DNA from: Tomocerus qinae
Taxonomy: Eukaryota; Arthropoda; Collembola; Entomobryomorpha; Tomoceridae
Direction: 5' to 3'
DNA length: 64,000 nucleotides
Assembly: GCA_020055645.1 (NCBI GenBank)
Contig: CM034546.1
Coordinates: 47,182,001 to 47,246,000, forward strand
The notes below the pieces were generated by a model. The model searched no databases and had not been told where the DNA came from. It saw only the letters and a program-made list of their open reading frames with translations. The position numbers were made by a program, and so were the translations under genes. Positions 16,290 to 59,680 of the stretch are shown one piece after another (positions within the stretch are counted from its first letter, which is position 1; each line of letters starts with the position of its first letter).

Positions 16290-16775
16290 GTTCATCTTCA
16301 TGAAATGGAATAGAGGTAAGAGATGAAGAGTTCAGATCTTTGTGGTACATTTGTACACCACATTGGATACTGCCATGTCAGCGATGCCTTCTTCTTGGTT
16401 TTCCCGCAATAAAAATTGAAACAATCTTCAAAAATAACCTCAATTATTTTTAAAAATTGTAAAACAATATTCCTGACAGGTACCTGAAAGCTGGATGTAA
16501 TTCGGTTGAAAGGAACGGAAATAAGGGCAAATAAAAGCGTTGAGGTACAATTGTACCACACTTGGACGTGGAAGTGTTAATTAAACTTTAACCAAAACTA
16601 CTATTAAGGACAATCATTTTGTTCGTAAGCAAATCTAATTTCATCCTTCTCTTTCATACAATATAAAAACTATCAACCAATGAAATCGTTGCGTTACACA
16701 GGGTGTCGCAGAATGAACGGTAAGGTGTGTGAACGATAACAAACTTCCGCTCATTTTGTGTCGCTCTGTAAAACT
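16290..16775. other. Left flank of element B, palindromic motifs
   Basis: Two near-palindromes around 'ggtacatttgtac' (16340s) and 'ggtacaattgtacc' (16530s) lie about 190 bp apart and may be ends of a small MITE. 16665-16700 ('ccaatgaaatcgtt') matches module M5, so element B sits in M5-type sequence. No gene is seen. Confidence 0.3.
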
Positions 16776-17208
16776 TGTTACGGAGGCTAGACTGGGTCCT
16801 ACCTAATGCTATCGGATTTAGATGCACTGGTACTGTCCCTACCGTAATTGTAGACTGAATAAGGTTCCATTCCCTAAGTTCAAACCTCCTATGTGCAATA
16901 TGCGAATACTTCAAGACTCTCGATCACTCTCAACAATTCAGATACAATAATTTATTACTTGAAACACGATAATTACAGCTTCTCATTGCGAACTAATCTC
17001 AGCTCGCGCAGGTAACATTCCTGCAAGTCAGGCCAAACACAGGCCGGATCTCCAAGACTAGGTTGTTCTCCTCGATGACTCCGCAAGACTGGCTCTCCTA
17101 ATGTAGATTGGCTCCTTTTATAACTTTTCTGACGTCGGTTGTAGTCGTAGTCCTCGTAGTAGATAATGTAAAGTAGTCTCCCACTCTGTGCTAGCTACGT
17201 ACATTATA
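16776..17208 (-). repeat. Element B 3' LTR
   Basis: 433 bp, nearly identical to 24767-25200. On the sense strand it has a TATAAAAG box at 17122-17115 and an AATAAA at 16956-16951, in the right order for U3-R-U5. The ends are TATAAT...AACA in sense, a departure from TG...CA, but both the aact duplication and the extent of identity support them. Confidence 0.85.
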
Positions 17209-17222
17209 CTCTTCCCCCCTTC
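17209..17222 (-). other. Element B polypurine tract
   Basis: The minus strand reads GAAGGGGGGAAGAG directly against the 3' LTR. This is the expected plus-strand primer of an LTR element and fixes its orientation. Confidence 0.8.
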
Positions 17223-17872
17223 AGACCCTGGGCTTCCGAAGTGGTACGTATGGGTTGAATGTTATATGAAAGGGTTGAATTGCTTTGCTTCTGTTGTTGT
17301 TCTGCTTCTGCTCCTGTGGCTCTGCTCCTGCTGTTCGCTATTCGTCTTGTTGCTTGCTCTGCTTCCTGCTGCTTGCTCTGCATTCCGCTGCTATTGCTCT
17401 AGTTATGTTATTATGCGACGATGCATCTTTGTGGTCGCTTCCTTTTGATGTTGAATACGTCGTCGTATCTATTTCATGCATGCTTACATAATAATATTAA
17501 ATAGTTAATTGTTACAGAATGCTTAACCTATGTTAGTGAATACATACTATTGTAACTCATCCGGTGTGACGGGTTGTTTTACTAGTACAATATACAATTA
17601 TTATAATGATATGGGGTAAGTTGATAATTTTGTCCCGCCGGTTGAAAAATAGCAGTTATCCTTGTAATTGTGGTATTTTCCGAACTCCATTCATTCGATA
17701 CTGTTATTGTCGCGTGCTGTTGTCGGAGTTTGAGTTTTTGGAATTGTTGTCGTTTTTCTGCTTTTTCTTGTGTTTGGATTCTTTTTTGGAATTATTTTGT
17801 TGATAGTTTGATTGTGTAGTGTGTAATCTGCATTTGGTAAGTGTTCCTCCATTTCGTTGTCCTATTGTTGAC
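17223..17872. other. Element B 3' region / upstream of the zinc-finger gene
   Basis: 17270-17405 is a low-complexity, CTG/CTT-rich stretch on the + strand. Open frames through it are compositional. The rest would be the promoter and 5' UTR of the antisense zinc-finger gene. A GTAAGT at 17837 could be a 5' UTR donor. No clear TATA box was found. Confidence 0.35.
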
Positions 17873-19409
17873 ATGTCTGAGTTGCCTTTAAGAAATCGTA
17901 CTATAAAACGTGAAATTGAAGATGAATATTCCAGTAGTGCTACTGAAATTGACTCTGACATCGAGATAATCGATTTTATCCTTCCGGATCTTGAAAATAG
18001 TCCTTCTTCGGTTGTTGCTGTCGATGTCGACGAATTTCTTGATGAGATTCTTCTCGGACATGAACAAATTCCAATCCGTAAAGTTATCTGTCGCGGAATT
18101 TGTACGAAAAATTTGATACCAGAAGTGCTTCATTATCTAGTGTACCCAGACAATTGCGATTGTCTATTCCATTACGGTTGTCAGTGTGCCCACGTTTATT
18201 TGAGCATATCTGAGTTACAACGCCGGTATTCTATTGGAGAGTTTATGTTGCGACTCATGAAGTCTCGTCCTGGGCGACGATTTGATTACTCCAGTGCCAT
18301 TTTTGATCAATAATTGAGTTGTCCTGGATGTGGCGTAATCTACGAAGGTGTGCGAGTGTATCTCCCACCTGTTGATGAAGATGTGGACGACGGAAGTCGC
18401 TTAGATGGTGAAGGTAATCATAATTTCATATTTATTTAATTTTTAGAAAAACGAAGTATATGTCATAGTCCTGTTGGGATTCCGTTTTCTAATTAGTGTA
18501 AATATTTGTAGAACTTTTCAATGGGTTATGAGAAATGGTGACGTTTTCTGGTGAAACGGTTCGCGTATTGGCTTGCGATTTGCCTCTAATATTAGAAGAC
18601 TGCAGCGTGGTCATTTCTACAGATCCAGGTAATGAAAATATTCCTCCTTGGTATTATTCGATTTTTCTTTTCAATTTGACATTTTATTGTTGGTATGTGT
18701 CGTAGTCCCAGTTGATGCTCCTGAAGAAGTTGAAGTTCCCTGTAGTTCTGTAGTAGCTGGAAGTAGCCGTAATTTTGCTGCTCCCTTAATTCGTGTTCAG
18801 GCTACTAGTAGTGTATACGTAGCGGGCAGTGGAATCTCTGGTACACATTCTGGTTGTGTTGATGTGGATGTCTCTGTTGCTCCTAACCATTTTGATGTTG
18901 ATGATTTTGGTAAGATATTATTTTTACTATATGTCATCGTCCTATAGGGTAGTCGGTGAAATGTAGGTTTCCCGTCATTGTTATTTATATGTTGGAGTAT
19001 ATTTCAAATTGTATTGATTGTTTGTTTACTGTAGATGCTGTAGTTTCAGTTGATGAAGATGTTGAAGCTCGCCAGTTGATGCTAGAAGAAGCGGTTCAAC
19101 ATGGACCTTCCCCGCGGATGACGGATTATTGCTCCGGATGTGGTAAGTTATATTTTGGAAATTGCGTGACTTAGTTGAAGTTGTCCAATTGCTTGATATT
19201 GATTACTTTACGATTTTAATTACAAAGAAACTTATATAATATGTTTGGTGTTTTTAGGGCGATTCGAGCCAAACGCACGCAAACGTGCAAGATGTTACGA
19301 GACTGATTTAGGAAAAGAAGGGAAATATGTGTGTCATATTTGCAAGAAAACTTTTTCGCGGTCGGATAATTTGAAGAAACACCTTCGCAAGGTTCATAAA
19401 CTTGACTAG
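17873..19409 (+). CDS. C2H2 zinc-finger protein gene, antisense within element B (5 exons)
   Basis: Exons are 17873-18413, 18533 (or 18512)-18628, 18706-18909, 19035-19142 and 19258-19409. Donors are GTAATC, GTAATG, GTAAGA and GTAAGT. All four introns (77-125 bp) are phase 1. The N-terminus is acidic (EIEDEYSSSATEIDSDIEII). Later come two short CxxCG motifs (CPGCG, CSGCG), an acidic VDEDV stretch used twice, and a C-terminal finger C-x2-C-x12-H-x4-H (CHICKKTFSRSDNLKKH). It is probably nuclear and DNA-binding, although a single finger is weak evidence. Oddities: an in-frame TAA at 18311-18313, and a TGA at about 18530 unless the non-standard acceptor at 18532 is used. AATAAA is at 19473. The gene may be inactive, or the stops may be sequence errors. 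Confidence 0.65.
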
Positions 19410-19472
19410 CCTGCTTTCCTGATAATCTCTTTCTTTGTACCACTTTTGGCATTATACATTCCTTTGGGTGTT

Positions 19473-19478
19473 AATAAA
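19473..19478 (+). terminator. poly(A) signal of the zinc-finger gene
   Basis: AATAAA 64 bp past the TAG at 19407-19409, on the antisense strand of element B. It separates the convergent zinc-finger and Gag-like units. Confidence 0.55.
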
Positions 19479-19777
19479 TTAAAGTAGTGCCGTTGTAGTG
19501 GTAGTTGATGTTGCCTATGACATATAGTCATATTTTTGTATTCTTGGTATATGTAGATTTAGTTGTTGCTAATAAAATTATACCTTCTTGTTAACTTAAG
19601 CTTTGCTTGCATTCCATTTTCCAAATTCGCATTTCTTCCCGCAGTGCATATAATAATATTTTGCAATAATATTGTTCTGGGTATTTGTAGTGTCAATTCT
19701 TCGTTGTGTATGTGCCATTCAATCACAAACAGCGTTTACTGATGATATTGAGCAGTTCTGTGAGGTAAGTCTGCATT

Positions 19778-19903
19778 GCAATGGAAACTGCCATTACCCC
19801 TCCATCGGAACTAGGTAATCGTCCCGTTATGCGGACACGCATGTTTTCTGATGACTGATTGGAGATGATTTAATATGGCAATGGAAACTCCCATTACCCC
19901 TCC
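19778..19903 (+). repeat. Paired repeat containing ccattacccctcc
   Basis: A near-perfect 26-bp sequence occurs at 19778-19803 and 19878-19903. Its core 'cattacccctcc' recurs at about 23776 and 23993 in the 5' leader, all on the + strand inside element B. It may be a binding site or a remnant of duplication. The rest of 19480-20254 shows nothing else. Confidence 0.5.
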
Positions 19904-20254
19904 ATTCCAAATTAAAGACAATTGCGGACGCATTTAAACTGATGACTTCACAGCTGATAGTAGTCTTGTTTTGCCAATCTTGCTTTGTACTTATTTTTAT
20001 GTTATACTATATGATCCGTATACTGTATATTATACTATTACAAAAACAACATTATATTGGGTATTCTTTTAAAGTGTACTGTGTATAACATGCTTATGGT
20101 TATATAGCTATTCGTTAAGATATAAGGTATACGAGTCATAACATACCAACTGCTATTACATTTGTTAGTGGTACTATTACTATATTATTGGATATTATGG
20201 CTTACATAAGTAATAGAAAGATATTACTACGTAATAGTATTTAAACTCCTGTAC

Positions 20255-21952
20255 TTAACACACTTTCACTTTCTTACGATGATTACTTGTGTGTACAAAC
20301 GAAGTTACTAACATTTTGATTCGTATGAAATTTACAATGTACGAGTTGTACCCGACTAAAATTTTCCATTGTTTCCCTAATTTAAATATACTTGCTTTCC
20401 AAATTCTTTTATCCTCCGATCCAAAAATTTTCCGACCATTAAAATACATCGAAATCATCTTAAAACAATAACTAACTTTCCTCTTACAGCTTACTTTAAC
20501 CATAACAAAATTATGATTAAAACTATAATTTTTGTTGCTACTACTGTATGTTTTCCGTACACAACTGTTTGTCAACGAAATGTAAGTGTATCTTAATGCT
20601 TTTAAACAAATTATTGCCTTAATTGAACTAGATATACTTTGCCAATTAGATTTAATTATATCGCTAGCTAACCATACCAGATTAACTATACACAATAACG
20701 TTTCTAATACCGTCTTCCATACTCGGTAATGCTTCAATATACGTTTACGTTTTACTCTTCTTTTAGTTGACTGTCCATCACGACAATTTTGCCAACCATA
20801 CGGCATATCTGCATTCATCCTGACGCATGACTTCTCTTCATTGCCTGCATTTTCCATACTGACGCATGACTTTTCTTCATTGCCTGCATCTTCGAAATTG
20901 CTTAAGGCTTCCTTAATACATTTCTTCAATTCAATCTTCCTGATAATCCGAGAATTTCCTCGATATCTTAACCCTTGGTTTGATTGATACAACGATTTTT
21001 CATCGTATTGGCATTCTTCTGTTTCATTCACTCCCATATCCAAAACTTCTATACCATCATTTCTTCTTCGCAACCTTAACTCTTTCTCTTCTCCATGAAC
21101 CGTTTGTCTGCTCTTAAAATCTTCCTCTGTCCTAGATGATGGGTGCGCAATCCAGTCATCTTTGGTTTTCTGATCATTTGTTGTATTTATTACATCATCG
21201 ACTGATTCCGATTCCAAGTCGTCTCCAGTCGTATTCCCAGAAGCTACTGTCCAGTGGCCGCTAAACAAGTAGTCCTTAGAATGGTCCATATTTGATGATA
21301 TAGATGTTATTTTTGCAATTATTTCATGTAACACACAAATAGAATCGATGTTCTTCTTGGCAGATCTCTTCCTTCGTCGCTTTTTCTTCCAATTCTTAAC
21401 AACTAGTGGCGTGTACTCTTCATGACAAGCCCGATTCTTCTCATTCCATCTTTCGTAATCCTTTAAATCTTCCTCAATGGTTATACAACGTTGGACCAAT
21501 TCACTGACAGTGTAGGTCGACAATCCATTCGTAAATATTCTGATACGTGGGTGCAAAGCCTGTCTGCATCTCTTCACGATATCTTCTTCACATTCTTCCG
21601 GAAAAACTTCTTTGTTCAATTTGACAACGGAATAAATAAAACTTTCTGAATTTTCAGTTTCTTCCTGTCGCATATTCATCAATCGCTTCATTTTACAATG
21701 TCTTACACTATACGTTTCATGTCTCTTCCGATATTCTAACTTAAATAAATCCCAAGTTACAATCCCTTGTTTAACATGATTAAACCAACTACGGTCATTG
21801 CCTTTTAGAATTTTAGGTAGGTAGTCTATCCATAACAATTTGTTTAATCTTATTGCCTTAAAATAACATTCTAAATCCAATAAATAATCTGTAACTGAAC
21901 AATCTTCATAACTCTTAGGTATCGGTATATTGCATGTACATAACATATCCAT
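20255..21952 (-). CDS. Gag-like protein of element B
   Basis: 565 aa from an ATG at 21952. Residues about 20-170 follow the retrotransposon Gag (capsid-like) pattern: DYLLDLECYFKAIRL, LPKILKGNDRSWF, TWDLFKLEYRKRH, RQEETENSESFIYSVV, then a C-terminal helix region. A basic stretch (KKKRRRKRSAKK, about 195-210) could bind RNA or direct nuclear import. No CCHC zinc knuckle is present. A peptide motif AGNEEKSCV is repeated twice near residue 355, and the last about 150 residues are hydrophobic/basic with no match. It would form the particle of element B. The missing knuckle and long tail are unusual. Gag assignment is by pattern, not by search. Confidence 0.6.
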   Translation of the reverse strand: MDMLCTCNIPIPKSYEDCSVTDYLLDLECYFKAIRLNKLLWIDYLPKILKGNDRSWFNHVKQGIVTWDLFKLEYRKRHETYSVRHCKMKRLMNMRQEETENSESFIYSVVKLNKEVFPEECEEDIVKRCRQALHPRIRIFTNGLSTYTVSELVQRCITIEEDLKDYERWNEKNRACHEEYTPLVVKNWKKKRRRKRSAKKNIDSICVLHEIIAKITSISSNMDHSKDYLFSGHWTVASGNTTGDDLESESVDDVINTTNDQKTKDDWIAHPSSRTEEDFKSRQTVHGEEKELRLRRRNDGIEVLDMGVNETEECQYDEKSLYQSNQGLRYRGNSRIIRKIELKKCIKEALSNFEDAGNEEKSCVSMENAGNEEKSCVRMNADMPYGWQNCRDGQSTKRRVKRKRILKHYRVWKTVLETLLCIVNLVWLASDIIKSNWQSISSSIKAIICLKALRYTYISLTNSCVRKTYSSSNKNYSFNHNFVMVKVSCKRKVSYCFKMISMYFNGRKIFGSEDKRIWKASIFKLGKQWKILVGYNSYIVNFIRIKMLVTSFVHTSNHRKKVKVC

Positions 21953-22064
21953 CTTTCTTATGCTATTAACAAATTACCATTAACTTAACAAATTCTGAGT
22001 AACCAATAATTAGTCATACACGCATATCGTCAAACCTTAAAACAACTTCTGTCAAAAAAATTGT

Positions 22065-22430
22065 CTAAAATCCTCTATGCCGTGATTGTACTCGATTTGC
22101 CATGTCCATAAGCTCTGAACTTTGTAACAAGTCAATGCCAATTACAATAGGTACATCTAAGAACGGATCTATCTTAAAATTGTGTTCTATGGTAACACCG
22201 TCTTTATATAGTAGTAATTTGAAATAATACGTTCTAGTGTCTTTAGTAATGTCTTCAATAACTGTGTATGCACTACTCCTCTGTATACCAAAAGTCTCTG
22301 CAAATGCTAAAGCAATTTGAATATGTATCAACGATATTTGTTCGTTAGTATTAACTTTCGCTAACAGATTATATTTCGTTCTAGTGTTGCTATATGGATT
22401 TCGTACTTCTATGTCGGTTGTAATTGTCAT
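22065..22430 (-). CDS. Small retropepsin-like frame of element B
   Basis: 121 aa from an ATG at 22430, 112 bp upstream of the Gag-like frame. The end reads FLDVPIVIGIDLLQSSELMD, resembling the second half of a retroviral-type aspartic protease (the I-G-x-D-h-L motif after the flap). No D-T/S-G active-site triad is visible, so it is either half of a protease or a structural relic. A protease-like frame before Gag is the reverse of the usual gag-pro order. Confidence 0.4.
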   Translation of the reverse strand: MTITTDIEVRNPYSNTRTKYNLLAKVNTNEQISLIHIQIALAFAETFGIQRSSAYTVIEDITKDTRTYYFKLLLYKDGVTIEHNFKIDPFLDVPIVIGIDLLQSSELMDMANRVQSRHRGF

Positions 22431-24749
22431 ACTTTATACAAATTATCATAAAGTATTGCTTCTAATCATTTAAAATACAAACTTTTCCAATAAGTCCGTT
22501 TACAATTCATATAATATCTTATAATGATAAAATGCTTAACATCAAAATTTAAATTACTTATGCTTATTTATCTGCCTTAATTAATTAATCTTGCTTAACT
22601 CAAGTTCTTGCGTAGCTTGGAATTTACCTACTACACATACAGTATCAAACGTTCCACTGGTTTAACCACAAACTATTTCCCCAATAGCTCGTTTACATAC
22701 AATTCCAATGACTTTACTTATCTATTTTCCCTGCTACTTGGAATTTACCACAGTAGTTACAATAGATATGTTTCACTCCCATTAACTTTACAAACTTAAT
22801 TTAATTTCTACTTATTGTAATTTTTATCTGCTACCTGGAATTTGCCTGGGCAGTTACAATAGGTTACTTATTCAAATGTACTTTTCCAATTCTCACAATT
22901 TACTTATTTGTATTATAATCTTATTATTATCTGTATTTTAATAATCACAGCCGAATGGAACTTCCCAAATCAGCCTACAGTCACTCAATTGAAATACAAT
23001 ATTCTGTACTCGTATACAAAGTTACAATATTCCAACGTATTGTAAACTATATTCTGCCTTATGGAATTTCCCTTCATGCAGCAAATTTACTCAACTTTAC
23101 ACTTTTACATTTATACATGAGTCTGCGGAGCCAATTCCTAGTCGGTGAACCTGCCTTCCTTATAATTCACAATGCCTGCTATCTTATCCAATATTATACT
23201 TTTACAATAATCTGTGTGTTACTATGTGTTTACTGACGATACGTTCCGCGTACCATTTACAATATTCAAACTTATTACAATTAGTATCTAATTACTTTTA
23301 CAATCATCCTGATTTAAATTAACAAATTTAAATGATAACTATTACAATGCATTACTTCCAAAGAAAAATTATCCATGTGCTTTTAAGTATTAGTCTTTTA
23401 CAGCATAAAATAATGTTTAAAACATCATATTTCTATATAAAAACTTCCAATTTGCATTAATGTTCAAAATCGATAACACAAAGGTAAAATATAATGTAGT
23501 TATAGTAATACCAATCCTTAGCATTAATTAGATAAGGTATTTTCAACTCACGATGAATACAGGTCGTTCACTTCGTCTCTTCAATTATGCTTTGCCAGTA
23601 AAATCACTTACTAGCTTATGTTAATTGCTCTGCCAACTATACTCAGCTAGCATTCCAAATCACTGCTTTTATCTCTAGTTAACCTCAACCAGATTGCCCT
23701 CTCGGCTAATCCAACCATACAACGGCTAGAATATGCAACGCTTTCTTTTCCAACCAATACCGGCTAGATGCAATGCATTACCCCTCCAACTGTACACAGC
23801 TAGATTGCAATGCTTATGTATACGTGTCTTGGTATACGGTGCTATCTGCTTACTGAAGTTCTTTAGCCAGGTCTTATCTTTCCCTTAGCCAATGGCGTTG
23901 CAAGCGTCTCTAGAACTCAGAATAGACACAATTAACATAAATTCTCCGGTTGGTACATGAATGCATAATTTGACCTTTGCTTGAAGTTTTGTCCATTACC
24001 CCTCCAAAACTTTAATTTTGTGATTCAACGTATACTGACATCAAATACGCGTATTTCTTCACTGTTTTATACTTTCCAAACAATAAAATGATTTCAATTT
24101 TTATAAGAATTTTGCTTTTCTTTCCAATAAAATAGTGACAATAAAATGATACTGAAACAGTTACAATGAAATCAACAGAAAGAATGACTTAGTCGTACTT
24201 AATTCTTTAGCTTTAGATATTAAATATAAAATTCTGTTTCTCTGGCATAAAATGAATAGCTCCAAGTTACGTGCATGAAATTAGCTCTTAGGTTTTAATT
24301 CTGCTTCTCCAAAATTGAATTGCTTCTCCCAAAATTTCGGCTAACTGAAGGTAATAAAATAGAACGATACTTTCGTTACCAATTACGATGTGGCCTCGTT
24401 TCCGCTCTAATTCGGATGATCAGCGTCAGCTCCGGTATTTTCTTCTCTGCTCGCTGTCGGACTCGGATCTCGGTTTCCCCCAGGCACAGATCGAAATTTT
24501 GAAGATGTTCACAAGCGTACTCGACCTTCTCTCCTTCAAACCTCCAAATTTTGGTAGTTTTTTTACGGCAGCAAGAACTCACGGATGATAAAACTTGGTT
24601 TCACACAGTTCAGAATTTTATCACTGTCAGATAGCTATTTCACAGTTTTTCCAATGTCACTGTAGCCAATTTTAATTTTTCTTCTTAACGCACTCAAAAT
24701 TTTCCAATTCACGAAGTTTGAAGTATCACAAAATTGCAGAAATTAGGAT
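22431..24749 (-). other. Element B 5' leader
   Basis: 2.3 kb without a convincing gene. 22560-22960 holds imperfect repeats of about 110-130 bp built on 'tggaatttacc' and 'agttacaatag'. 23630-23830 repeats 'ggctagatgcaatgc'-like blocks. A GTGAGT at 24582 on the sense strand could be a splice donor for the downstream frames. Confidence 0.45.
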
Positions 24750-24764
24750 TTTGTTTCGGCACCA
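24750..24764 (-). other. Element B primer-binding site
   Basis: On the minus strand, TGGTGCCGAAAC begins two nucleotides inside the 5' LTR. TGG complements a tRNA CCA end. Which tRNA is used was not determined. Confidence 0.6.
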
Positions 24765-24766
24765 TG

Positions 24767-25200
24767 TGTTACGGAGGCTTAGACTGGGTCCTACCTAATG
24801 CTATCGGTATTAGATGCACTGGTACTGTCCCTACCGTAATTGTAGACTGAATAAGGTTCCATTCCCTAAGTTCAAACCTCCTATGTGCAATATGCGAATA
24901 CTTCAAGACTCTCGATCACTCTCAACAATTCAGATACAATAATTTATTACTTGAAACACGATAATTACAGCTTCTCATTGCGAACTAATCTCAGCTCGCG
25001 CAGGTAACATTCCTGCAAGTCAGGCCAAACACAGGCCGGATCTCCAAGACTAGGTTGTTCTCCTCGATGACTCCGCAAGACTGGCTCTCCTAATGTAGAT
25101 TGGCTCCTTTTATAACTTTTCTGACGTCGGTTGTAGTCGTAGTCCTCGTAGTAGATAATGTAAAGTAGTCTCCCACTCTGTGCTAGCTACGTACATTATA
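24767..25200 (-). repeat. Element B 5' LTR
   Basis: 434 bp partner of 16776-17208. Sense transcription would leave it leftwards from a TATAAAAG box. It is followed on the right by the target duplicate aact. Confidence 0.85.
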
Positions 25201-27700
25201 AACTGTCCTGCCTGATTTATTTCTTCTTCACCGTTTCCTGCTTGCTGTTTGGACTTTGGAATTCTATTTTGCGTTGAATTTAACTATCAACCATACAATT
25301 TGATACAAAATGGACAAAATCAATTTTCCTGGACGAAATTATTTTCGACCTGAAAGTAATAATTTAATTTCCTACATGTCGGAAAAAATTCATAAAACTG
25401 TAAAAAAAATAAAAAAATATATCGTGGATTGTATTTATTTCGTCCATACAAAATCCAGCTCTCACTTATAATGTCAAATATGTTGTGAATTTCTTTACGT
25501 GAGGTTGCACTGCCAGTCGAGCAGTCGTGAGTCCATTTTTTAATTTTTAAGTGAAGTAGTAGCGATAGTTAGTTAGTAGTTTATCTGCTGCTTTGCAGAC
25601 CGTTTTTCTTTAATTTTTCCTAACAAGCATCACATTTCTCTACTTTCAAGGCCATTTTATTCTCTTCCCCTCTTCCATATTTTCGTTCACTCTCTTCCAC
25701 GTTCCAAATACACAATCTAACTCAGCCTAGTCTCATCCATTTACGCTATTTTGCCTGTTCGGAGTTTCCTCCGCCCTCGGTGTCCACCACCACCTCCATC
25801 GACTTGTATCATTCCTTTCAGTGATTTCCTTATCTGTCTACCTTATCATTACCTGCCCTAACTAAGTATTGCACCCGACCTAGCCAATACCCGTACTATA
25901 CCTGTACCACTATACAAACCGTTACACGTTATTAGGCTTCTCGGCTATTAATTAATGTTTTCAATAATGTACCCCAACGCATACCTCTATGTACAAAATT
26001 TATGAAGGTATGCGTTGGGGTACATTATTGAAAACATTAATTAACAATAATACCAGTGTTGAGGAAGTTGAGTCCGTTATTGAGGCCTGCGCCCAGTACT
26101 ATCACTGTATAGTGAGGCAGTACACCCCATATGAGAAAGGTTTAGAAAATCTACAGAATATCCTTGACTTCGATGTTATAGTTACGAAAAATAAAATCCT
26201 TGTTACTTATTATTATCTAAAATTACACCGATTGTAACAAAGTATTAATTAATTAACTTGTAATTAATTTTATTATTGAAATTACTAACTAGTTAACTAA
26301 AGTAATTTGTTCTTAGGTTAAATGTATCCCTCTATAAATTTAAAACTAGCTCAGTTCATCGTATGCTATCATAAGAAGGGTGTCTGAAAATTTTTTATTA
26401 TGTACAGATAAAATAATTAATATACCGAATATTAAATATTATTTAGATTTTAGCCAGAATTAAAATATCGTGGAAGACAAATGAAAGAGTTTGGCAATAT
26501 AGCTATCAAGCCCAACTTCTTTACTAGTCTTCAACTGTGGTTTCCTACTTAATACACCGTTGGCGTTACCGTTTGCCATAACATCGTTGGAGGCTACCAA
26601 ATATAACAAATGCACTACTTCCTGGACAAAATTAGTTTCGTCCTAGGCAAAAATTGCAAAATGAATTTAGCATATGTTCGAAACTAATTTTGTCTGCGAT
26701 TTAAATTATTCATCTTTGAAGGTTACGATTTCAATCGGACATTATAGAAAAAAAATTGAATTGAATTACTTCTTACAAGGGGGTGCGAAATGACCGGTAT
26801 TGGAACTTAGTGCATAAAAAGCAATAGCACCCAGATTCAATTATCGATCATTCTGTGCTACTCCAATTAACTACCGCATCTCACTTCTTACCTTCTACCA
26901 GTCTTCGACTGTTAACTGTTTGGACTTTTGTCAAGACTGAGTCGGATTAAAAAGCATTGTTGGTATACTAATCTGGACGAAATTTTGTCCCGGTCGAAAT
27001 TAGTTTTGAATTTGAAGTGCTAAATTATTACCTTCACGTACATTGCTAATTTCTATCATGGACAAAAACTATATTCATCGTGAACAATTGTCTTCTTTTA
27101 CTCTACACCACTGACAGTTCCCTACTGTTGTGGATTCCGGCATTTTACAAGCTTGATTAACTTGATCTTCTCCGATGTCTCAGTGTGCATTTTCTTGTTA
27201 TGAATAGTTGTTGGGTTAAGCAGTAAAAATAAAACTGTTAAATTGTCTCAAGTCCTAATTATTACAACCTATGATAAGTGATCATTGTTATCTTATTAAA
27301 TTATTTAGTATAACATTTTAGATTAGTTATAACTTACAGCAAAGTAAAATTACGGTTTTCTTTATTTTAAAAAAACTTGCATGCATAATTTGTTTAGTGG
27401 AGATGGAATTTAATGGATAATTGTCTTCAGTTAGGCTACGACGCTGAAAAAGGTGTTTGATAATTGCTCATCATTTCATTTTATTGTTTACCAGAAGTCC
27501 AAAGCCCATTTTATCTGTAGAATTTGAAGGTATGTTTGAAGAAAGCTTTAAAAAGTATAACCAAAGAAATAACATTGTCCATGATGTAAAAACTAAAAGC
27601 ATGTTTTCAAGTTTCCTACTTAACTTAGCCATTTCCTCAAAATTGAAAAATCAACTGTTTCTCAGCATACAAGTAAATCAAAAGCCAATGAATAGCATTT
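25201..27700. repeat. Module M5, copy 1
   Basis: 25230-25400 and 26370-27400 match 43420-44300, 59980-60700 and 61660-62300. Typical are inverted pairs of 'gacaaaattag' and 'ctaattttgtc' and the block 'ttaattatcgatcattctg'. Element B splits it from its left part. An open frame at 25989-26237 reads like protein (RWGTLLKTLINN, VESVIEACAQYYHC) but begins in a palindrome and is unidentified. Confidence 0.5.
25948..26044. mobile_element. 39-bp perfect palindrome, MITE-like
   Basis: Arms 25948-25986 and 26006-26044 are exact reverse complements around a 19-nt loop, with ttaa at both ends. A diverged second copy lies at 60266-60356. The size suggests a miniature transposon or foldback remnant. ttaa or ta targets are possible. 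Confidence 0.6.
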
Positions 27701-30769: not shown

Positions 30770-31877
30770 ATACTGTCACGTTTTTAGTGAGGATTGTGAA
30801 TATTGGGATATGATATTGGAGTATAGCGGGGTTAATTGCGGCAGAAGAACAATATCTCAGTATCTATAGTCAGTCAGAAGAGTCGGTACAGTCATCATGA
30901 AATAATATGTGCTTCTTTGCGATAAAATTATATGGTAGTAGGGAGTAGTATAGTGTAGTGGTGTAGTGATATGGGATGGGAATCAGAGTAGAGGGGTTAC
31001 CTGCGAAATTAGCATGGTCTGCTTCAAGTCAAAGCCATTGCAGTGAGTCGGTAGAATCATCATGTAAAAGTCTTTCCTTATGTTAAAGTTATATTATGTG
31101 CAGTGCAGTGCGGTGGTTGAGTTAAGTATTATGGAAATAAGGGTAAAGGGGTTACATGTGACAATACCATAGTATCATCAGTCGGAGTCAGAGTCGTCAT
31201 GCAATACATCCTTATGATAATAATACTAAAGTGGTAGTCAGAAAAGAGTGAGTAGAGTAGTATATAGATAGTTGTGACTGAGTAACGTAGTGTAGTGGAT
31301 GAAGAGCATATCCATATGAGTATACGTATTGATTTTCGGCCTTTGAGATTTTGAGAAGAGTATGGTTACTACATTCTATCTTGTCTGTGATCAAGCGTGC
31401 AACAAGTAAATGCAAAATGCAATCACAGGCAGGCAGTTGGCAGTTTCCCCCAGCACCGTACCTTTCACTTTTAATAAATGCTTTTCGTTGGGTATTAAGG
31501 AGACCAACACTTTTCTTTAACATTAACATAATATTTCTTTGTAGTGCAATTATTAACATTTAAAGGAGAAAGTCCTCTTAAGGAATGGATCAGCCTAAAT
31601 ACACTTTTCGTTTTGTTTAGGTAAATCACATTCGGTTTCAGAATACAAAATACTTTTACATTTTAGCAAGAATGCCAGATGGGATATGATTATGATATAT
31701 GAATCAGAGTGAAGGGGTTATGTGCAACAGTAGAGCAATATCCCAGTTCTCAGTATCTTTTGTCATGAAAATTCAGAAGAGTCAGTGAGTTAGTAGATAT
31801 GCATCATGTAATAAAGTCCTTCGTATGATAACATATTTATACGTTATTGGGTAGTTATATAGGTAGTACAGTGGTAT
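30770..31877. repeat. Module M3, roughly 160-bp repeats, left of element A
   Basis: Degenerate units centred on 'ggggttacntgcgacag' begin near 30828, 30993, 31148 and 31714, followed by 'agtcagtcatcatgaaata'. 31290-31560 matches 41310-41460 and 57880-58080. Element A is inserted in this array. Confidence 0.55.
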
Positions 31878-32515
31878 TGTAAGATTAGTAAATAGCCGGG
31901 ATGAGATCGTTTATGCCCCAAACTAAATGCCACCAGTAGATGCACCTGAGTCTCCGTGATTCTCCGATGAAGATATCAGATTTCTATCTACTAATCACAC
32001 ATCATACACGATATCAGTTTAAGTTCAATATACACATTTAATATAGCCCACACGTCAATGAATCACATCATATTGAACCGGCAAGATAGGTATAGGTACA
32101 TAAATGTTAGCCCCCCCCCAATCAAAATATATAATAATAATAACATAGATCAAATCATGAATTAATTATGCATTTTACTTACGCTACCCAAAACCAAAAT
32201 AACGTCGACAGAAGGTCAAGTCCAAAGGAGGCGAGAGAGTGGCTATTGCGTCGTCATTGGCAGTCGTTGTCAGTCAATTCCACTTCCGGAGCACAGGGCA
32301 GGAGAACACTACAAGTGAACGGCAAGACTTCTCCGAACGTAATAGCGGCGTTAGCGAAGCTCACGTCGTATTCAAGGAAAATGAAGGAGCCGGACAGAGA
32401 AGACGGAATGGACGGACTGACGCAGACGCAACAGCTATACTCTCAACCTCCGTACATTTAATCTCTACACGCACAGCCTACTACTACTAATACAAATACT
32501 CCCTATATACTGTCA
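31878..32515 (-). repeat. Element A 3' LTR
   Basis: 638 bp. Differs from the other LTR by a longer C run near 32110 and a few substitutions. The open frame on its + strand also occurs in the other LTR and is not a gene. Confidence 0.9.
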
Positions 32516-32548
32516 TCCCCATAAATTTCCTAAAACGCCCACGTTTTC

Positions 32549-33181
32549 TTAATTACGACGATATGGGCAATCGTAACGATGATTTCGGGATATCCCAGGA
32601 TGATTTTCGAATCCACACCAACGACACTTGACTGGTGGAGGTTCGACATCCAACTCAGCATTGCATCGGGAAGCTGAGTGACCAAAGCATTTGCACCGAA
32701 AACATTGTAGTGTGCCATCGTTGCGTCTGAACTTATTAGTAAGTCGTCGTGGGTCACTTCTTGGCGCAGGTGGATGAACTGTTGGAGTCGGAGCCTTGGT
32801 TGGTAAATCAACTTGAGGGCGACGGGCTACGTACGAAATAGGACTCCGTTTACGCTTCATCTCAGTGGTATCTGTAACAGCGTCGTTCTCCTCATGATGA
32901 ACGACTTGATTGGGTTCTGCGGCGTTAACAATTACGTCATCGACAGCTTGCGGAGTATGAGCGGCGTTAGAGGCGTCGTCATGTTCCTCCGGAGTGTCGT
33001 TGAGTAAAGCGTCGTCAATTGCGTCGGAACCAGTGCAATCCATAATTTCGTCATCATCCGAGTCAGCAAGTAGCATATCCTCATCGACAATAGGTTGCGC
33101 GGCATAATCAAGAGCCTCGTCCAGGATATGTTCTGGATTTTCCCCTTGTGAAAGCAAGGTCATCAATTCGCTCTCACTCAT
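32549..33181 (-). CDS. ORF3 of element A: acidic protein with zinc knuckles
   Basis: 210 aa from the ATG at 33181; the frame is open slightly further upstream without ATG. The first half is strongly acidic (DEDMLLADSDDDEIMD). A basic/proline-rich linker follows, then a CCHC knuckle (CFRCKCFGHSASRC) and a second cysteine/histidine cluster (CRWCGFENH...C) at the end. It lies where an env gene would be but has no signal peptide or membrane segment. A T-rich splice acceptor (ctgttgtag, ending 33227) lies 46 nt before the ATG, so a spliced subgenomic mRNA is likely. It probably binds nucleic acid. I know no clear family. Confidence 0.75.
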   Translation of the reverse strand: MSESELMTLLSQGENPEHILDEALDYAAQPIVDEDMLLADSDDDEIMDCTGSDAIDDALLNDTPEEHDDASNAAHTPQAVDDVIVNAAEPNQVVHHEENDAVTDTTEMKRKRSPISYVARRPQVDLPTKAPTPTVHPPAPRSDPRRLTNKFRRNDGTLQCFRCKCFGHSASRCNAELDVEPPPVKCRWCGFENHPGISRNHRYDCPYRRN

Positions 33182-33226
33182 CGTGACACCGCGACTCGTA
33201 TTGCAGCTGTATAACACAATATCGTC

Positions 33227-33243
33227 CTACAACAGAAAAAATT
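33227..33243 (-). promoter_or_regulatory. Splice acceptor upstream of ORF3
   Basis: The minus strand reads a run of T, then CTGTTGTAG followed by GAC. It is well placed to deliver a leader to ORF3, as env splicing does in related elements. Confidence 0.5.
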
Positions 33244-33482
33244 GAACGACAATAATTAGAACAATATATTTACAAATGCAAAATATTTTTAATAATAAAT
33301 TGTAACCAGGAACCATTTAACGAGGTGCACATTTCAGTGATGGCCCGCTGATTTGAAATGAAATCCTAACCATACTGAACTACTATTACCATAACCAAAA
33401 AAGAATTATACGAAGTAAATAGGTACTATTACATCAAAATTATATTCTTGTACCTTCAAAACTTATAGGGAAAAATATTAAT

Positions 33483-36400
33483 TTAAATATTATGAACTAC
33501 TGAATTAAATGACTGTATAAGGGCCATCACCATTTCCTGCTTGCTCTGGGCTGCGTCTAATATACAATGTGCACCTCTACTCGTAGAAGCTGCACTTTTA
33601 GTTTTACCACCACTAGAACCTCTTGTGGACTTTCCACGTGTGGTACTTGATTTGGCTGTAGGGGCCTTAGATCCTCGTTTCGACATGTAGTCGTAAACGT
33701 TATTGCCAAAGCGATCCGGCTGGCCTTTTGTCCTCTTACTAGCACGCGAGAAGGTGGCGTCGGAGGTAGTCGAGGTGCCTGCCTCCTCCGGCTGATTCTG
33801 ACTCACACTTTCCTCCGTTTCCTCTGGGATAAATGAATCCGGAGCGTCGGAGTCTTCGTGAACAGTTTCGTCTACATCTGGGTTACCGTCGTCATCGTTC
33901 TCACCCAACGTCATCGGTATAGCTGGCACATTGTGAGGAATGGATCCTCTCTGAGCTGGTGCCGTTAGCAGACGTGAGTGGTTCAAAAAGTCGTCGTCAT
34001 TGGGCGGCGTCTGAAAACTCGTATTAGAACTAGAGAATATAGTTGTATTATCAGAAATACCAGTTTTAACCGGAGCGTTAATTTCTACCGTGTCGCAAGA
34101 GACAATAAAAGACGGATCCGATATTGTCCAATCTTGGTCGACAACGGAGCTAGGGACGTCATGAGCCTCGTACTCTAGAAATTCTTCTACATCGGGATTG
34201 TATTCGTCATAGTAAGGCTCCAAGTGCCTTATATTTTCATTGCGTCTAAAGCCTTTCTTTGCGTCACGTAAATCTTCAATTATGTAATTAATGGGTCCAA
34301 CCTGCTGAATAACTTTAAACGGGCCTTTCCAATGAACCAAAAATTTAGTTGTTTTACCGACTAATCTAGCGAAACTCGCTAGTAGTACTTTGTCACCTGG
34401 TTTATAGTTTACCACGGGATGATGAGCATCCCACTTTACCTTACGTAAATTCTGAAGTAAAATGGTCTTATCTCTAGCTTTTACTCTGGCATCCTTTAAT
34501 CGCATATTAGCTTCTTCAGGCGCGTGTAAATAATGATTTAAAATAGGGTACTTAATGTCACAAGGTAAAGTTGGTTCTCTACCATAAAGTAAGTAGTATG
34601 GGGTGTAACCTGTTTCAGAATGCGTCGTGATATTTATTGACCATTGTACCCGATACAATGTGTGATCCCAATTATTGTGATTATCATTAACGCGCTTTTT
34701 AACGATGCTTTTAAGCGTACCATTTACTCTTTCACATACAGCATTTGTAGTGTGATTATAAGGCGTCGATTTCGTCAAGGTAACGTGGTATTCGTTACAA
34801 AAGTCAGTGAACTCTTGCGACGTAAAATGCGTTCCACAGTCAACTAAAATTTCTTTAGGACATGCAAAGTTAAATATTAGACCACTTTTAATAGCAGCTA
34901 TGGCACATGCAGATGTAATATTTTTTACTGCTCGTAAAATAACAAATCTAGTCAAATGATCGATAATTACAATAATGTAATTATTTCTACTAGGAAAGCT
35001 TGTCTTAAAAGGACCTATGAAGTCAATACCTACTCTGTCCCATGGTTCTATTGGCGGCGGTATTGGTAGCAAAGGACCTGGCCTTGCTTTATGTCGTCTA
35101 TTATGCATTTGGCATACTTGACAACCTAGAATATACTTACGTGTGTCTCGGTACATACCCGGCCAGAAATATCTGGATTTCAAAAGATGATAAACTTTAT
35201 GCAAGCCAAGGTGGCCAGCAGTGGAAATATGAATATTATCCAGAATTTCTTTCTTCATGCCTCTAGGTATCACTGTAAGCCAAAGTTTAGAATCCTCGTC
35301 ATTACTAGCTTTATATAATATGCCATCTTCTATCTTATACATTACATATTTAGGATCAAGAAAATTAGTAGCATTTAACTCAAATGCTTCTATCGCGTCA
35401 AAAATGTCGACCAGCTTGGGGTCATTGCGCTGTAAAACTCCAAATTCTTTATCAGTCTCTAAAGAAAATAATCTATCGTCATATTGTAAATGTTCGGCGT
35501 CACTTAGTGCTGGCGGCGGATTCACGGGATTTCGTGACAAAGCATCGACGTTACTATGCTTCCTACCGGACTTATAGACAATGTTAAATTTAAATGGAGA
35601 TAATCGTGAAGCCCAACGTGCTAATTTACCCTGTGGGTTCTTCATTTCAAGTAGCTGGCACAAAGAGCAGTGATCGGTTACGACCGTAAATATTTTACCA
35701 TGAACGTAAGGACGGAATGTTTCTACAGCGTACAGAATGCCAAGACATTCTAGTTCGGTTGCGCTATAATTACGTTCGTAAGGCAAAAGTGCTCGAGATG
35801 AATACGCAACTACCTTCCACTCTCCCTCGTCTTCAGCTCTTTGCTCTAAAGTGCATCCAACCCCAATATGACTAGCATCTGTGTAAATTCGAGTTTCAGC
35901 GTCGTCTCTCGGAAATGCCATGACAGGAGCGGAAGTTAAAGCTTCCTTTAATTTTTCAAACGCAGTTTGTTGTTCGTCACCCCACTCGAATTTAACGTTT
36001 TTACCCGTTAATTTCGTTAGAGGTCTAGCAATATGCGTAAAATTACGTATAAATCTGCGGTAATAACCTGCTAAATATACGAACTGTCTTACTTCCTTCA
36101 CAGTTGTTGGAGCTTTGTACTCCCGGACACATTTAACTGTGTCTGGATTTGGCGATATTCCTTCAGATGACACAATGTGACCTAGGTACAAAATCTTATC
36201 ATCAGCTACAGTGCATTTTTTAGGTTTTAATCTTAAACCTGCTTTGTCCAGTGCCTGAAACACGGACTCGACATGTCCGAGATGAGAATCGAATTGTTTA
36301 CTATGCACTATAATATCATCCAAGTACCCTAGAGCCACTGTCCATTTAAGTCCTCCTAATACAGCATCAATCAATCGCTGAAAAGTTTGCGCAGCATTGC

Positions 36401-38393
36401 ACAAACCAAAGCTCATGTAATTAAATTGGTACAAACCGTCAGGCGTTACAAAAGCTGTCTTTTCTTTATCCTGCTGCCTCATAGGTACCTAGTGATAAGC
36501 ATTTTCACAATCAAAGATCGAAAAATACTTACAACCAGCAAAACGATCGAGTGCGTCATCCATACGTGGAAGAGGATAGTTGTCTTTACGTGTTACCTTA
36601 TTAATAGCACGATAATCAATACAGAATCTTTTAGTATTATCCTTCTTATCTATAAGCACGACTGGTGAAGACCATGGTGAATCACTATGGCTAATAATTC
36701 CTTTCCGTAACATGTCCTCTGTCTGCCTGTTAATTTCTCTCCTTTCCTCGTATGATACTCGATATGGCTTTTGTTTTATAGGTGCGGCGTCACCTGTTTC
36801 TATGCGATGTTCGACGTAATCACATCTACCAACTTCCTTTCCATCACCTCCGAATAAAGATGCGTATTTTATAAGTAAATTCATTACTTCTGTTTTCATC
36901 GCGTCGTCAAGTTTACTACCTATAGAGATTTTAGAAATAAATTCATTCAATTGAGGACTTAACGAATTCATGAAATTGACATCGTTGAGTAAAGACTCAA
37001 CGGGTTCGTAAGAAGATTTCTTGCTTCGTAATTCTTCATCGACTTCATCTAGATTACATAAAATCTGTTCGTTATTAAAACTCTCATAGGTACCTAGAAC
37101 TGTATTTAAGTATAGCCATAATGGTCGGCTGGATAAATTCAACAAAATTGTATGACCAATTCCTTCTGTAATAGAAAGTAATGTATGTCCAACTCCAACC
37201 TTCTTGGAGTGTTCTAATTGTGACATGGGCTTAACTAAAATGTCACCATTACATTTACTATCTGTCTTTACAGGAACTCTGAGAGCGTAACCTGGCTTTA
37301 TGCATACTGACTTAGCTAATCGAATTTTATTCAGAGCGTAATTTACCATTTCTGATGGTTCAGTAGAAGGACTACTGCTTTCATATGAGTTAGGAACTGA
37401 AAAATCCAACTCTGCATATTCGGTAGGAGCAAAAGAAGAGCCATGTTCGGTTACATTAGTGTCATTGTTCGATAGCGGCGTAGGTGCAAATATTAATGAG
37501 GCTTCTCTATCAGCATAAGAGCCTGGTGCGTCGTTATTCAAATCGATGCCGTAAACTAGCCTCTCATTAGAACATTCGACGAGTACGTCGTAAACCTGCA
37601 AAAAATCTAATCCAAGAACAATGTCATTAGTCAAATTACTGATTACATTGAACTCGTAAAGTATGGGTCTATTATTATCAACGGCGACAATCATCTCAAC
37701 CTTAGCTTTCACTAAATTAACATTATCACTATGGATTGATAATTTTAAGCTAAAAGGTTCAATATTAGTAACTTTATGTACATAATATTTAAATCTACTA
37801 TCTTTTCTCAGAAAATTGAAAAGACGTTCATTGACCGCAGTCATGGAAGCGCCGGTATCAGCAATAGCCTTAAGTTGCTTATTACCGATTGCTACTTTGC
37901 AAACCAATGGATGGTTGCATTTGAGAATGCTCCTGTAACGAGCAGGAAATAAGCCAAGCTTAGTTTCCGTGAAGATTGTGGGTGTCCGCCCCACTGGACT
38001 ATCTACATGAACTAACTTACAACAATTATCAACTTTAGGTTCTATTTTAGATCTAGTGACGATGTCCTTTACTGCAGTAAGTACAACGTCTTTAGCGGCA
38101 TTAGCATCAATAGGCGACTGATCACCTTTAGCGTCTATTTTACTATCTACGTAATTAACATTTTTGCTACTGACTACTGGAGTAGCAGAGCCTTGAATTT
38201 TTAATGAGCTATTATCTACTTTAGAACAAGGGGCATTCAACTTCCCCATAAATTTAGATTTAAATCTATTAGTATTAAGTACGACTAATCCCCCATATTT
38301 ATTATATCTAAACCTACGATGTATTTTATTCCCAGCAAAAAGTTTTAACAAATTATTTAAATTCCAAACACCGATTACGTCGTTATTATTCAT
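33483..38393 (-). CDS. pol: Pol polyprotein of element A (PR-RT-RH-IN), interrupted by TAG
   Basis: Opens at an ATG overlapping the gag stop. Protease active site DTGAS is at residues 179-183 with GLDFL further on. RT fingers and motif A (SIFD) end the first 634 residues. A TAG follows at 36491-36489, and the same frame continues for about 1000 residues: RT (FGLCNAAQTFQRL, catalytic YLDD), RNase H (YTDASHIGVG), the H2C2 zinc-binding region (HLGLHKVYHLLKSRYFWPGM, CQVC), and integrase with D, D and E residues (DFIGPF, VDCGTHF, CERVNG; last D-x35-E). A GPF module and a 200-residue Ser/Thr-rich basic tail follow. The stop inside RT would inactivate this copy unless it is a sequence error. Confidence 0.92.
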
Positions 38394-39430
38394 GCATTTT
38401 GGGAGTTTCCCTGATTCCTATTAGCGTCATTTGCATTTGCACTATTGTTAGGACCAACGACATTGTTAGCCGCGCGTTCGTAATAAGGAGGGTTGCCTGC
38501 TAAGCGATCTCTGCAATGTAATTTTACATGCCCAGCCTTATTACAGTGGTCACAGATAGGACGGCCATCGGCAGTACGATGATAGCGACCAAAAAGAACA
38601 TCATTACCATTATTTGTGACATTAGGTACATTATTATTACGAGCCACGTAATTACGAGCGACGTAATTTCTATTACCTCCTGTTCCACGCACATTATTAT
38701 AATTACGATTATTATAACGTGGAGCAGGACCAGCAGCAGCACCCATCATAGTTGGTGTAGCATAGGTTGACGGGGATGGAGAGTTCATGGCCTTAGTGCT
38801 TTGCTTATTGTCAACCTTTTGTGCCACACAAGTCTCAGCTATCTTACGTAAAATAGATAGAAATTCCAGACACGTCCTGATAGTTTGAGGTGCCAATGTT
38901 AATTGTAGCTTATTAGGTAGACCCTGCAATAGCTGCCTGACCTTTTCCTCCTCTGACATATTTGCATTAAGTAAAGCTAGAATTTTCATTTTACTAGTTA
39001 CGTAAGTCTGAGCGTCGTCACCTATTTCAAATTTGAGTGCTTTATTTTGGGCCCTATAATTTGCCTTCTGGTTGGTGTGGTCAAAAAATTGTACAAAATT
39101 AGCTCTTGTATCTTGCCAAATATCGTCAAAGTTAGGGTCAGCTGCCTGCATTTGTTGGTTAACTACTGGCCACACGGATGACCAATATGCTTTTGCGTCG
39201 TCATCTAACACTCTATCGAGGTTAGTCAGTAGCCATTGATTGTTCAAATGCATATAATTTAAGTCAGCTTCATGCCTAACCAGAAATTCTTGCACACTAG
39301 ACTTGCCGTCATAGTGGCGTAATTGTGCAATGGCTTCATTCTGCACGAGTCGCCTTTCGTTGATGTTCTGGGCTCGTAATGCAATAAGCTCAGCTTGGAG
39401 GTCATTTACTTGAGCCTCTAAATCCTCCAT
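38390..39430 (-). CDS. gag: Gag polyprotein of element A
   Basis: 346 aa. Residues 1-35 form a leucine-zipper-like coiled coil (LEAQVNDLQAELIALRAQ). About 50-210 is the capsid-like domain (YWSSVWPVV, FVQFFDHTNQ, LLQGLPNKL). An Asn/Arg-rich linker follows, and a single CCHC zinc knuckle (CDHCNKAGHVKLHC) lies near 290. It packages the element RNA. The stop overlaps the pol start as ATGA, shifting frame by one. Confidence 0.9.
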   Translation of the reverse strand: MEDLEAQVNDLQAELIALRAQNINERRLVQNEAIAQLRHYDGKSSVQEFLVRHEADLNYMHLNNQWLLTNLDRVLDDDAKAYWSSVWPVVNQQMQAADPNFDDIWQDTRANFVQFFDHTNQKANYRAQNKALKFEIGDDAQTYVTSKMKILALLNANMSEEEKVRQLLQGLPNKLQLTLAPQTIRTCLEFLSILRKIAETCVAQKVDNKQSTKAMNSPSPSTYATPTMMGAAAGPAPRYNNRNYNNVRGTGGNRNYVARNYVARNNNVPNVTNNGNDVLFGRYHRTADGRPICDHCNKAGHVKLHCRDRLAGNPPYYERAANNVVGPNNSANANDANRNQGNSQNA

Positions 39431-39528
39431 TTTGAAATATTTTTACAAAATGTCGAGTGGCAGTACAAAATAATAATTACCCTGGCCAAAGGTTGACGTA
39501 AGACGAGTCTTACCGGAATGTCAACAGG

Positions 39529-40158
39529 CTAATGTGTAAGGACACAACAGGGTAGTCGGGTCAAAAAGAAAATTTTCCTCACTATTATGTCAACGTAAAT
39601 TATGAATGACTCGCAAGTTCGTTCTACATGAGCGACAAAAGTTGAAAGTGAGTCAGAGTTAGGGTCAATCGAAGATGCCACGTAAGTCGGAGATAAATGA
39701 GCCAGAACAATAGTTACGTCGAAATTATGCATGAACTGTTCGTTAGAAAAATTAAGACGCAAAAACATATGGATCTACAATGTAGTAGTAGCAACAAAAA
39801 TATTAGGGCGCTTGAAAGACAAATTACTTCTGGAAAATAGATCGTCAAAAATACTGCACATTAGTTCGACCACAGACTCAACTTTTTTAGCATCGTTAAT
39901 AGGCCCAATTGAAATAGCTAAATTCTCTTCCTGTCCTGTAATTTCTAATTGAGTCACTAACAAACCTAATAAGGCTACACGAATATGTCCAATAATTTTA
40001 TCTCGCGTTAGTTCAATTGCGGCGTAATCCTCAACGTTAATATGAATTACTACTTTTACTATACGTGGTAGCATTTTCAAAACAAAATTACTAATAGCGG
40101 CGTAAAGAATTTTGAACTCATGAACAAAATAGAAATTTTTGGGATAGCGTCGTAACAA
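39529..40158 (-). CDS. Leader ORF of element A, split by TAG
   Basis: Upstream of gag, about 210 codons are open from 40188 to 39529 except for one TAG at 39775-39777. The first ATG is at 40074. The product would be hydrophobic/amphipathic (VVIHINVEDYAAIEL, VALLGLLVTQLEI). I recognise no domain. It could be an N-terminal matrix-like extension, a separate accessory protein, or chance. Confidence 0.35.
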
Positions 40159-40473
40159 AGTAATGGAATTTCGTGACGTGATTGGAATTTATCATCTCTA
40201 TTTTCAAAAATTAATATCAGAATAATCAGATCATACAATATTACTTCGAAACAAAATTAGCTAGACTGTAGTTCAGAGGTTGAGCAACTCGCTTGACAAC
40301 AGAAAGGCACTAGAGAAAGGACGGCGGCGTAATTTTGGGCATAGGTTCGGGGTCATTTCACTACACCAAAAAATGATGAGATTAACTGCTTACCTTAATT
40401 CCCTGTTCAGTAGTCATTCCCGGATATTTTTCAGTGTCGTTTCCAGAACTAGAGGGAACTACCCCTTGCATCT

Positions 40474-41109
40474 TGTAAGATTAGTAAATAGCCGGGATGA
40501 GATCGTTTATGCCCCAAACTAAATGCCACCAGTAGATGCACCTGAGTCTCCGTGATTCTCCGATGAAGATATCAGATTTCTATCTACTAATCACACATCA
40601 TACACGATATCAGTTTAAGTTCAATATACACATTTAATATAGCCCACACGTCAATGAATCACATCATATTGAACCGGCAAGATAGGTATAGGTACATACA
40701 TGTGAGCCCCCCAATCAAAATATATAATAATAATAATATAGATCAAATCATGAATTAATTATGCATTATACTTACGCTACCCAAAACCAAAATAACGTCG
40801 ACAGAAGGTCAAGTCCAAAGGAGGCGAGAGAGTGGCTATTGCGTCGTCATTGGCAGTCGTTGTCAGTCAATTCCACTTCCGGAGCACAGGGCAGGAGAAC
40901 ACTACAAGTGAACGGCAAGACTTCTCCGAACGTAATAGCGGCGTTAGCGAAGCTCACGTCGTATTCAAGGAAAAATGAAGGAGCCGGACAGAGAAGACGG
41001 AATGGACGGACTGACGCAGACGCAACAGCTATACTCTCAACCTCCGTACATTTAATCTCTACACGCACAGCCTACTACTACTAATACAAATACTCCCTAT
41101 ATACTGTCA
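40474..41109 (-). repeat. Element A 5' LTR
   Basis: 636 bp partner of 31878-32515. Sense transcription runs leftwards into the leader. Its outer edge abuts the gtat target duplicate. Confidence 0.9.
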
Positions 41110-59426: not shown

Positions 59427-59680
59427 GAACCAAATAGACTATCTCCACTTTTGGTTTTGTGGACGAAATAGCCTATCTCCATTTTTCGTTTTGTGGACGA
59501 AATAGCCTATCTCCATTTTTCGTTTTGTGGACGAAATAGCCTATCTCCATTTTTCGTTTTGTGGACGAAATAGTCTAAACGCCATGTAGCCTAAATGCTG
59601 CGCCATGTATGTAGAGAGTGTCTAGGCTATGGAGATAGGCTATTTCGTCCACAAAACGAAAAATGGAGATAGGCTATGGG
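59427..59680. repeat. 34-bp tandem repeat with an inverted copy
   Basis: Three identical units (59459-59492, 59493-59526, 59527-59560) are flanked by a diverged unit at 59427-59458 and a partial one after 59560. After about 48 bp, 59624-59679 carries 1.6 units in reverse orientation. Each unit holds 'gacgaaatagcctatctcc' and 'ttttcgtttt'. The whole can fold back. Confidence 0.8.

Follow-up and report, generated by a model that had tools for sequence, protein, structure and literature searches.

How could a gene keep its introns while being copied through RNA? A lack of introns is the usual mark of a retrocopy, and a locus of the collembolan Tomocerus qinae raises the question of whether an LTR retrotransposon can take an intron-bearing gene along in antisense. 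The window, i.e. the whole stretch of 64,000 nucleotides that was analysed (assembly GCA_020055645.1, contig CM034546.1, positions 47,182,001 to 47,246,000), holds an LTR element on whose opposite strand a five-exon zinc-finger gene is predicted. In our preferred reading, to which we give a probability of about 0.55, the element is a young LTR retrotransposon, gag-only and non-autonomous, in which an accessory gene with several introns lies in antisense between gag and the 3' LTR. Such an element would constitute a second route for copying intron-bearing genes through RNA, and the copies made in this way would escape intron-loss criteria.

The ends and terminal signals of the element, in coordinates of the window, are the following.

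16776-25200, sense on the minus strand: whole LTR element, a single element with LTRs and AACT duplication
16776-17208, minus strand: 3' LTR, 433 bp, from alignment to the other LTR, with TATAAAA and AATAAA on the minus strand
24767-25200, minus strand: 5' LTR, 434 bp, from the LTR alignment and the promoter/polyA motifs
16772-16775, no strand: left target-site duplication, AACT
25201-25204, no strand: right target-site duplication, AACT
24753-24764, minus strand: primer binding site TGGTGCCGAAAC, 12 bases, 2 bases inside the 5' LTR
17209-17222, minus strand: polypurine tract GAAGGGGGGAAGAG, 14 bases, directly preceding the 3' LTR
17116-17122 and 25108-25114, minus strand: TATAAAA in the LTRs
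16951-16956 and 24943-24948, minus strand: AATAAA in the LTRs

The two LTRs are identical in 431 out of 434 aligned columns, differing by one 1-base indel and one adjacent AT/TA, and the AACT found at both ends marks the element as one insertion event. Within each LTR, TATAAAA lies about 160 bases ahead of AATAAA on the minus strand, which is the usual U3-R order and makes the minus strand the sense strand. Read in that direction, the 5' LTR is followed by 2 bases, the primer site, the internal region, the purine tract and the 3' LTR. The original prediction of an intact, young LTR element with its sense on the minus strand is thus borne out: with near-identical LTRs, a target-site duplication, primer site and purine tract, all in one orientation, the element is a young LTR retrotransposon insertion. 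Behind the locus stands a single assembly, which is what would favor an assembly chimera, or two insertions mimicking one element; this we hold to be very improbable, as AACT is present at both outer ends, the primer site and purine tract occupy the correct inner ends and the LTRs are so closely matched. The primer site has one exact match in the window, namely itself, and three matches with at most two mismatches, against 2.25 expected by chance; presumably TGGTGCCGAAAC would fit the 3' end of a eukaryotic tRNA-Phe. At gathering scores, Rfam yielded no match in the window. The internal region has additional minus-strand motifs, two TATAAAA and four AATAAA; three of these AATAAA face the antisense gene, and all four might shorten the sense transcript. 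The 11-mer ATTACCCCTCC was found four times on the plus strand, always inside the element (at 19793, 19893, 23777 and 23995), and is absent from the rest of the window even when one mismatch is allowed; its occurrences at 19793 and 19893 sit in a 31-base repeat, 100 bases apart.

The original prediction gave no sense gene, and in this respect it has to be amended, since a Gag capsid ORF sits on the sense strand, accompanied by a small ORF.

20255-21952, minus strand: Gag-like ORF of 565 aa, in which the capsid part (residues 21-164) matches Arc in the PDB
22065-22433, minus strand: small ORF of 122 aa located upstream of gag and resembling, by eye, a retropepsin without the catalytic motif

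The best PDB match of residues 21-164 of the Gag-like ORF is the Arc capsid (E 1.6e-8), and the better-coding part of the ORF, 20740-21952, matches the same Arc capsid at E 1e-8. Arc derives from a Ty3/gypsy-type Gag. The Pfam model PF03732 (Retrotrans_gag) scored E 1.1e-4 and 22.8 bits, below its curated cut-off of 24.1, while reaching only E 0.0094 on the gag of the Gypsy element situated elsewhere in the window. Taken together, these matches identify a Gag capsid of the Ty3/gypsy-Arc kind, with PF03732 remaining under its cut-off. The length of the ORF, 572 codons from stop to stop against a maximum of 192 in 300 mononucleotide shuffles, is not due to chance. Its coding score is moderate over 20740-21952, where 6 out of 356 controls were equally high, and no coding signal is seen in the final ~160 codons (20255-20740). 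The CCHC knuckle pattern that was tried was not found in the ORF. A 39-base tandem duplication, with copies 92% alike, occupies 20816-20893, and as 39 is a multiple of three the frame is kept across it. Formal membership in Ty3/gypsy (Metaviridae), which goes by RT phylogeny and gag-pol domain order, neither of them found here, is not claimed because no RT was found.

The small ORF upstream of gag resembles a retropepsin by eye. It had no protease match in Pfam and no match by sequence in NCBIfam or the PDB, and its single-sequence structure model (pLDDT 53) gave no fold match with E <= 0.001, the best being a designed protein at E 0.036. Its coding score is weak (45 out of 356 controls equally high). 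With Pfam, NCBIfam, the PDB and the model all failing to back it, the protease identity was not supported; the sole hint is a sub-threshold match (E 0.022, in a search against one target) to the protease end of a neighboring Gypsy ORF.

Minus-strand ORFs of at least 60 codons in or across the element numbered 14. The domain scan covered 12 of these, the other two lying in or across the LTRs, and detected no reverse transcriptase, RNase H or integrase family, pol remnants shorter than 60 codons being such as could escape it. As a positive control, the same scan of the neighboring Gypsy ORFs returned RVT_1, RT_RNaseH, Integrase_H2C2 and rve. When the three Gypsy ORFs were compared with the element by tblastn, four weak matches were obtained (E 0.04 to 8.4), the best of which (22 residues, 24335-24400, plus strand, E 0.04) was taken as a chance match. 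The element had been described as lacking pol, and the 12 scanned ORFs agree with this; having a gag and no pol domain in 12 out of 14 ORFs, it has the composition of a gag-only, non-autonomous element of the TR-GAG type. Reverse transcription and integration would consequently have to come in trans, as the original prediction also held, no pol domain having been detected that could provide them from within.

The Gypsy element of the window (31877-41109) is young as well, with LTRs at 31877-32515 and 40473-41109 that are about 99% alike. It has a gag at 38390-39430, a further ORF at 32549-33217, and a reverse transcriptase split over two ORFs (33483-36482 and 36489-38393), so that the copy is apparently broken. 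As a partner of the element under study it does not suggest itself: the exact primer-site motif occurs only once in the window, and no long DNA match links that element to any other part of the window. Other features of the window include a 93-base near-palindromic repeat in two copies, 87% alike (25949-26041 and 60264-60356), possibly a small inverted-repeat transposon, and a tandem array of about four copies of a 34-base unit (59429-59598). A 570-codon ORF on the minus strand (48302-50014) had no Pfam or NCBIfam match; by eye, we take it to look like a divergent ionotropic receptor.

On the plus strand, i.e. antisense to the element, the predicted zinc-finger gene comprises five exons with two polyadenylation motifs downstream.

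17873-18413, plus strand: exon 1, interrupted by an in-frame TAA at 18311-18313
18533-18628, plus strand: exon 2, preceded by a weak acceptor ending at 18532
18706-18909, plus strand: exon 3
19035-19142, plus strand: exon 4
19258-19409, plus strand: exon 5, with C2H2 finger and stop codon
19473-19478, plus strand: AATAAA, starting 64 bases past the last base of the stop (19409)
19571-19576, plus strand: second AATAAA

The four introns are all GT-AG and in phase 1, with lengths of 119, 77, 125 and 115 bases. Exon 5 carries one C2H2 finger (PF00096, E 2.4e-8, 34.4 bits against a curated cut-off of 25.2), which makes the predicted product a C2H2 zinc-finger protein. Open length alone is no evidence for the gene, the longest single open frame in 17210-19800 being 168 codons, within the range of shuffled sequences (maximum 180 in 300 shuffles). 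Codon usage, scored after training on the other ORFs of the window, supports the gene well: in all five exons the predicted frame outscores the other five, the intron frames are negative in 12 out of 12 cases on the plus strand and slightly positive in 3 out of 12 on the minus strand, and the joined five-exon frame reaches 0.305 bits per codon, compared with at most 0.059 among 500 stretches of non-coding sequence, each 1100 bases long. When the six exon pieces were ranked against 725 open segments elsewhere in the window, 12, 0, 1, 0, 0 and 14 of these were equally high, and against controls of similar length 0/12, 0/515, 1/461, 0/328, 0/551 and 14/673, ranks that are indicative since the exon ends were placed by visual inspection and the background set shares sequence with the control regions. 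A structure model of exon 1 was unusable (pLDDT 35).

The in-frame TAA does not appear to be the end of the gene. The part of exon 1 beyond it (18314-18413) has the top coding score of the six pieces, with none of the 725 controls equally high, and this coding signal points to a real exon interrupted by a stop. The claim of a five-exon C2H2 gene antisense inside the element therefore holds for the spliced frame, the coding scores and the finger, and fails for the integrity of exon 1; the gene in the sequenced copy is probably broken and without a full-length protein. As the stop truncates the protein, any function would rest on intact relatives.

The coding frame is antisense and lies between gag and the 3' LTR, which is the placement of the antisense accessory genes (aORF-3R) of other LTR retrotransposons. 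This position, which is also that of the plant antisense ORFs, argues in favor of a resident accessory gene, and the retained gag ORF shows that the element is not a bare carrier. Against an accessory gene stand the single copy of the element that was seen, the stop in exon 1, the four internal AATAAA in the sense RNA and the failure to find a homologue of the zinc-finger protein or, outside the PDB, of Gag. The first two of these, along with the host-like layout of the gene (four introns, with a C2H2 finger at the end), speak for the main rival, in which the ancestor of this copy took up, once and in reverse, a zinc-finger gene of the host together with its introns, and the gene has entered decay. 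The stop codon favors such a capture somewhat and the location favors the accessory gene, the slot that it occupies being the one described for resident antisense genes; altogether we consider the capture rather unlikely. Clearly less probable still is that the gene represents a separate DNA insertion, residing in e.g. a DNA transposon, that was nested in the element after integration and whose introns would thus have been spared an RNA stage. In its favor, gag and the antisense gene form two separate blocks, and the age of the gene does not follow from LTR identity alone. Only two inverted repeats of at least 14 bases were found in 17209-20300, however, both of them weak (one of 20 nt at 80%, the other a 15-nt palindrome) and neither bracketing the gene, so that this test, which covers only insertions with such repeats, revealed no nested DNA transposon around it.

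A capture, if recent, might have left a recognisable host relative. None was found, which weighs little in libraries that seem poor in eukaryotes. In a set of 5.8 billion proteins, neither the spliced zinc-finger protein nor the Gag ORF had a match at E<=0.01, and the exon 1 piece had none at E<=0.1; this silence is weak because the search requires shared exact words and missed even the Arc-type Gags that the PDB gave. The viral contigs contained no confirmed relative of Gag or of exon 1, and neither an LTR 20-mer nor a primer-site 22-mer occurred there unchanged; exon 1 had no relative among bacterial and archaeal genome contigs, and the phage collection held no DNA match for 16776-24767. These DNA collections are viral, bacterial and archaeal, and such misses say little about eukaryotes. 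In the collections searched, then, relatives outside the PDB were found neither for the zinc-finger protein nor for Gag, for which the PDB gave Arc.

Under the preferred reading of a gag-only element with a resident antisense gene, the sense RNA would be made from the 5' LTR and packaged, possibly by the element's own Gag, and an autonomous partner would supply the reverse transcriptase and integrase. The introns would outlast the RNA stage due to the antisense placement, which reverses the splice signals in the sense RNA and should leave it unspliced through reverse transcription. The antisense gene, for its part, would be transcribed from the 3' LTR side, and by analogy with HBZ and the plant antisense ORFs its product may have been a zinc-finger regulator of the element or of the host. 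More tentatively, and at somewhat less than even odds, the locus may represent an element family, probably in animals, that permanently carries a four-intron antisense zinc-finger gene, spreads intron-bearing genes via RNA and regulates itself by the encoded protein, in a manner that is HBZ-like and evolved independently. Spliced antisense genes of transcription-factor type would in that case extend from deltaretroviruses to a gag-only retrotransposon.

Parts of this arrangement are familiar from other systems. TR-GAG and other non-autonomous LTR elements keep gag and lack pol, as is the case here, and differ from the Tomocerus element in having no added antisense spliced gene. Among the matches listed in a literature search (titles and abstract openings, with subscription journals thinly covered), we recognised none that describes an LTR retrotransposon with a multi-intron gene in antisense. 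A paper on rotifer LTR elements has no mention of introns and one of antisense, concerning small RNAs, and its extra ORF3s are expressed from spliced messages. In Drosophila, micropia is an LTR retrotransposon with antisense RNA, reported to be without protein-coding capacity (PMC7264820), whereas the antisense frame of the present element is coding by score.

The closest parallel in gene order is provided by the antisense additional ORFs (aORF-3R) of LTR retrotransposons, which are mostly known from plants, e.g. Grande gene23, RIRE2 and Retand TRP28, and also from the fungal Boty (PMC7264820, PMC11963269). These elements resemble that of Tomocerus in that an antisense gene separates the sense genes from the 3' LTR; some of the products are nuclear or predicted to bind DNA, and some Retand elements are likewise non-autonomous (PMC7264820, PMC11963269). 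The word intron is absent from the main text of both papers, compared with four introns in the gene described here (PMC7264820, PMC11963269). The C2H2 finger and the lack of a detected pol also set the present element apart.

Penelope elements disperse intron-containing host genes in rotifers, with antisense templates invoked for the retention of introns, and in this capacity the authors contrast them with all other retrotransposons (PMC3846280). In both cases a retroelement frames an intron-containing gene, and the same antisense-template argument applies (PMC3846280). Penelope is, however, not an LTR retrotransposon, while that of Tomocerus possesses true LTRs together with a primer site and purine tract.

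Lastly, HBZ of HTLV-1, a bZIP protein, and the other deltaretroviral antisense genes are spliced, are expressed from the 3' LTR and encode nuclear proteins resembling transcription factors (PMC10186651). The predicted Tomocerus gene resembles HBZ in its antisense orientation, predicted splicing and transcription-factor-like product (PMC10186651). It differs in having a zinc finger instead of a bZIP, in its four introns, and in being carried by an element in which no pol was found.
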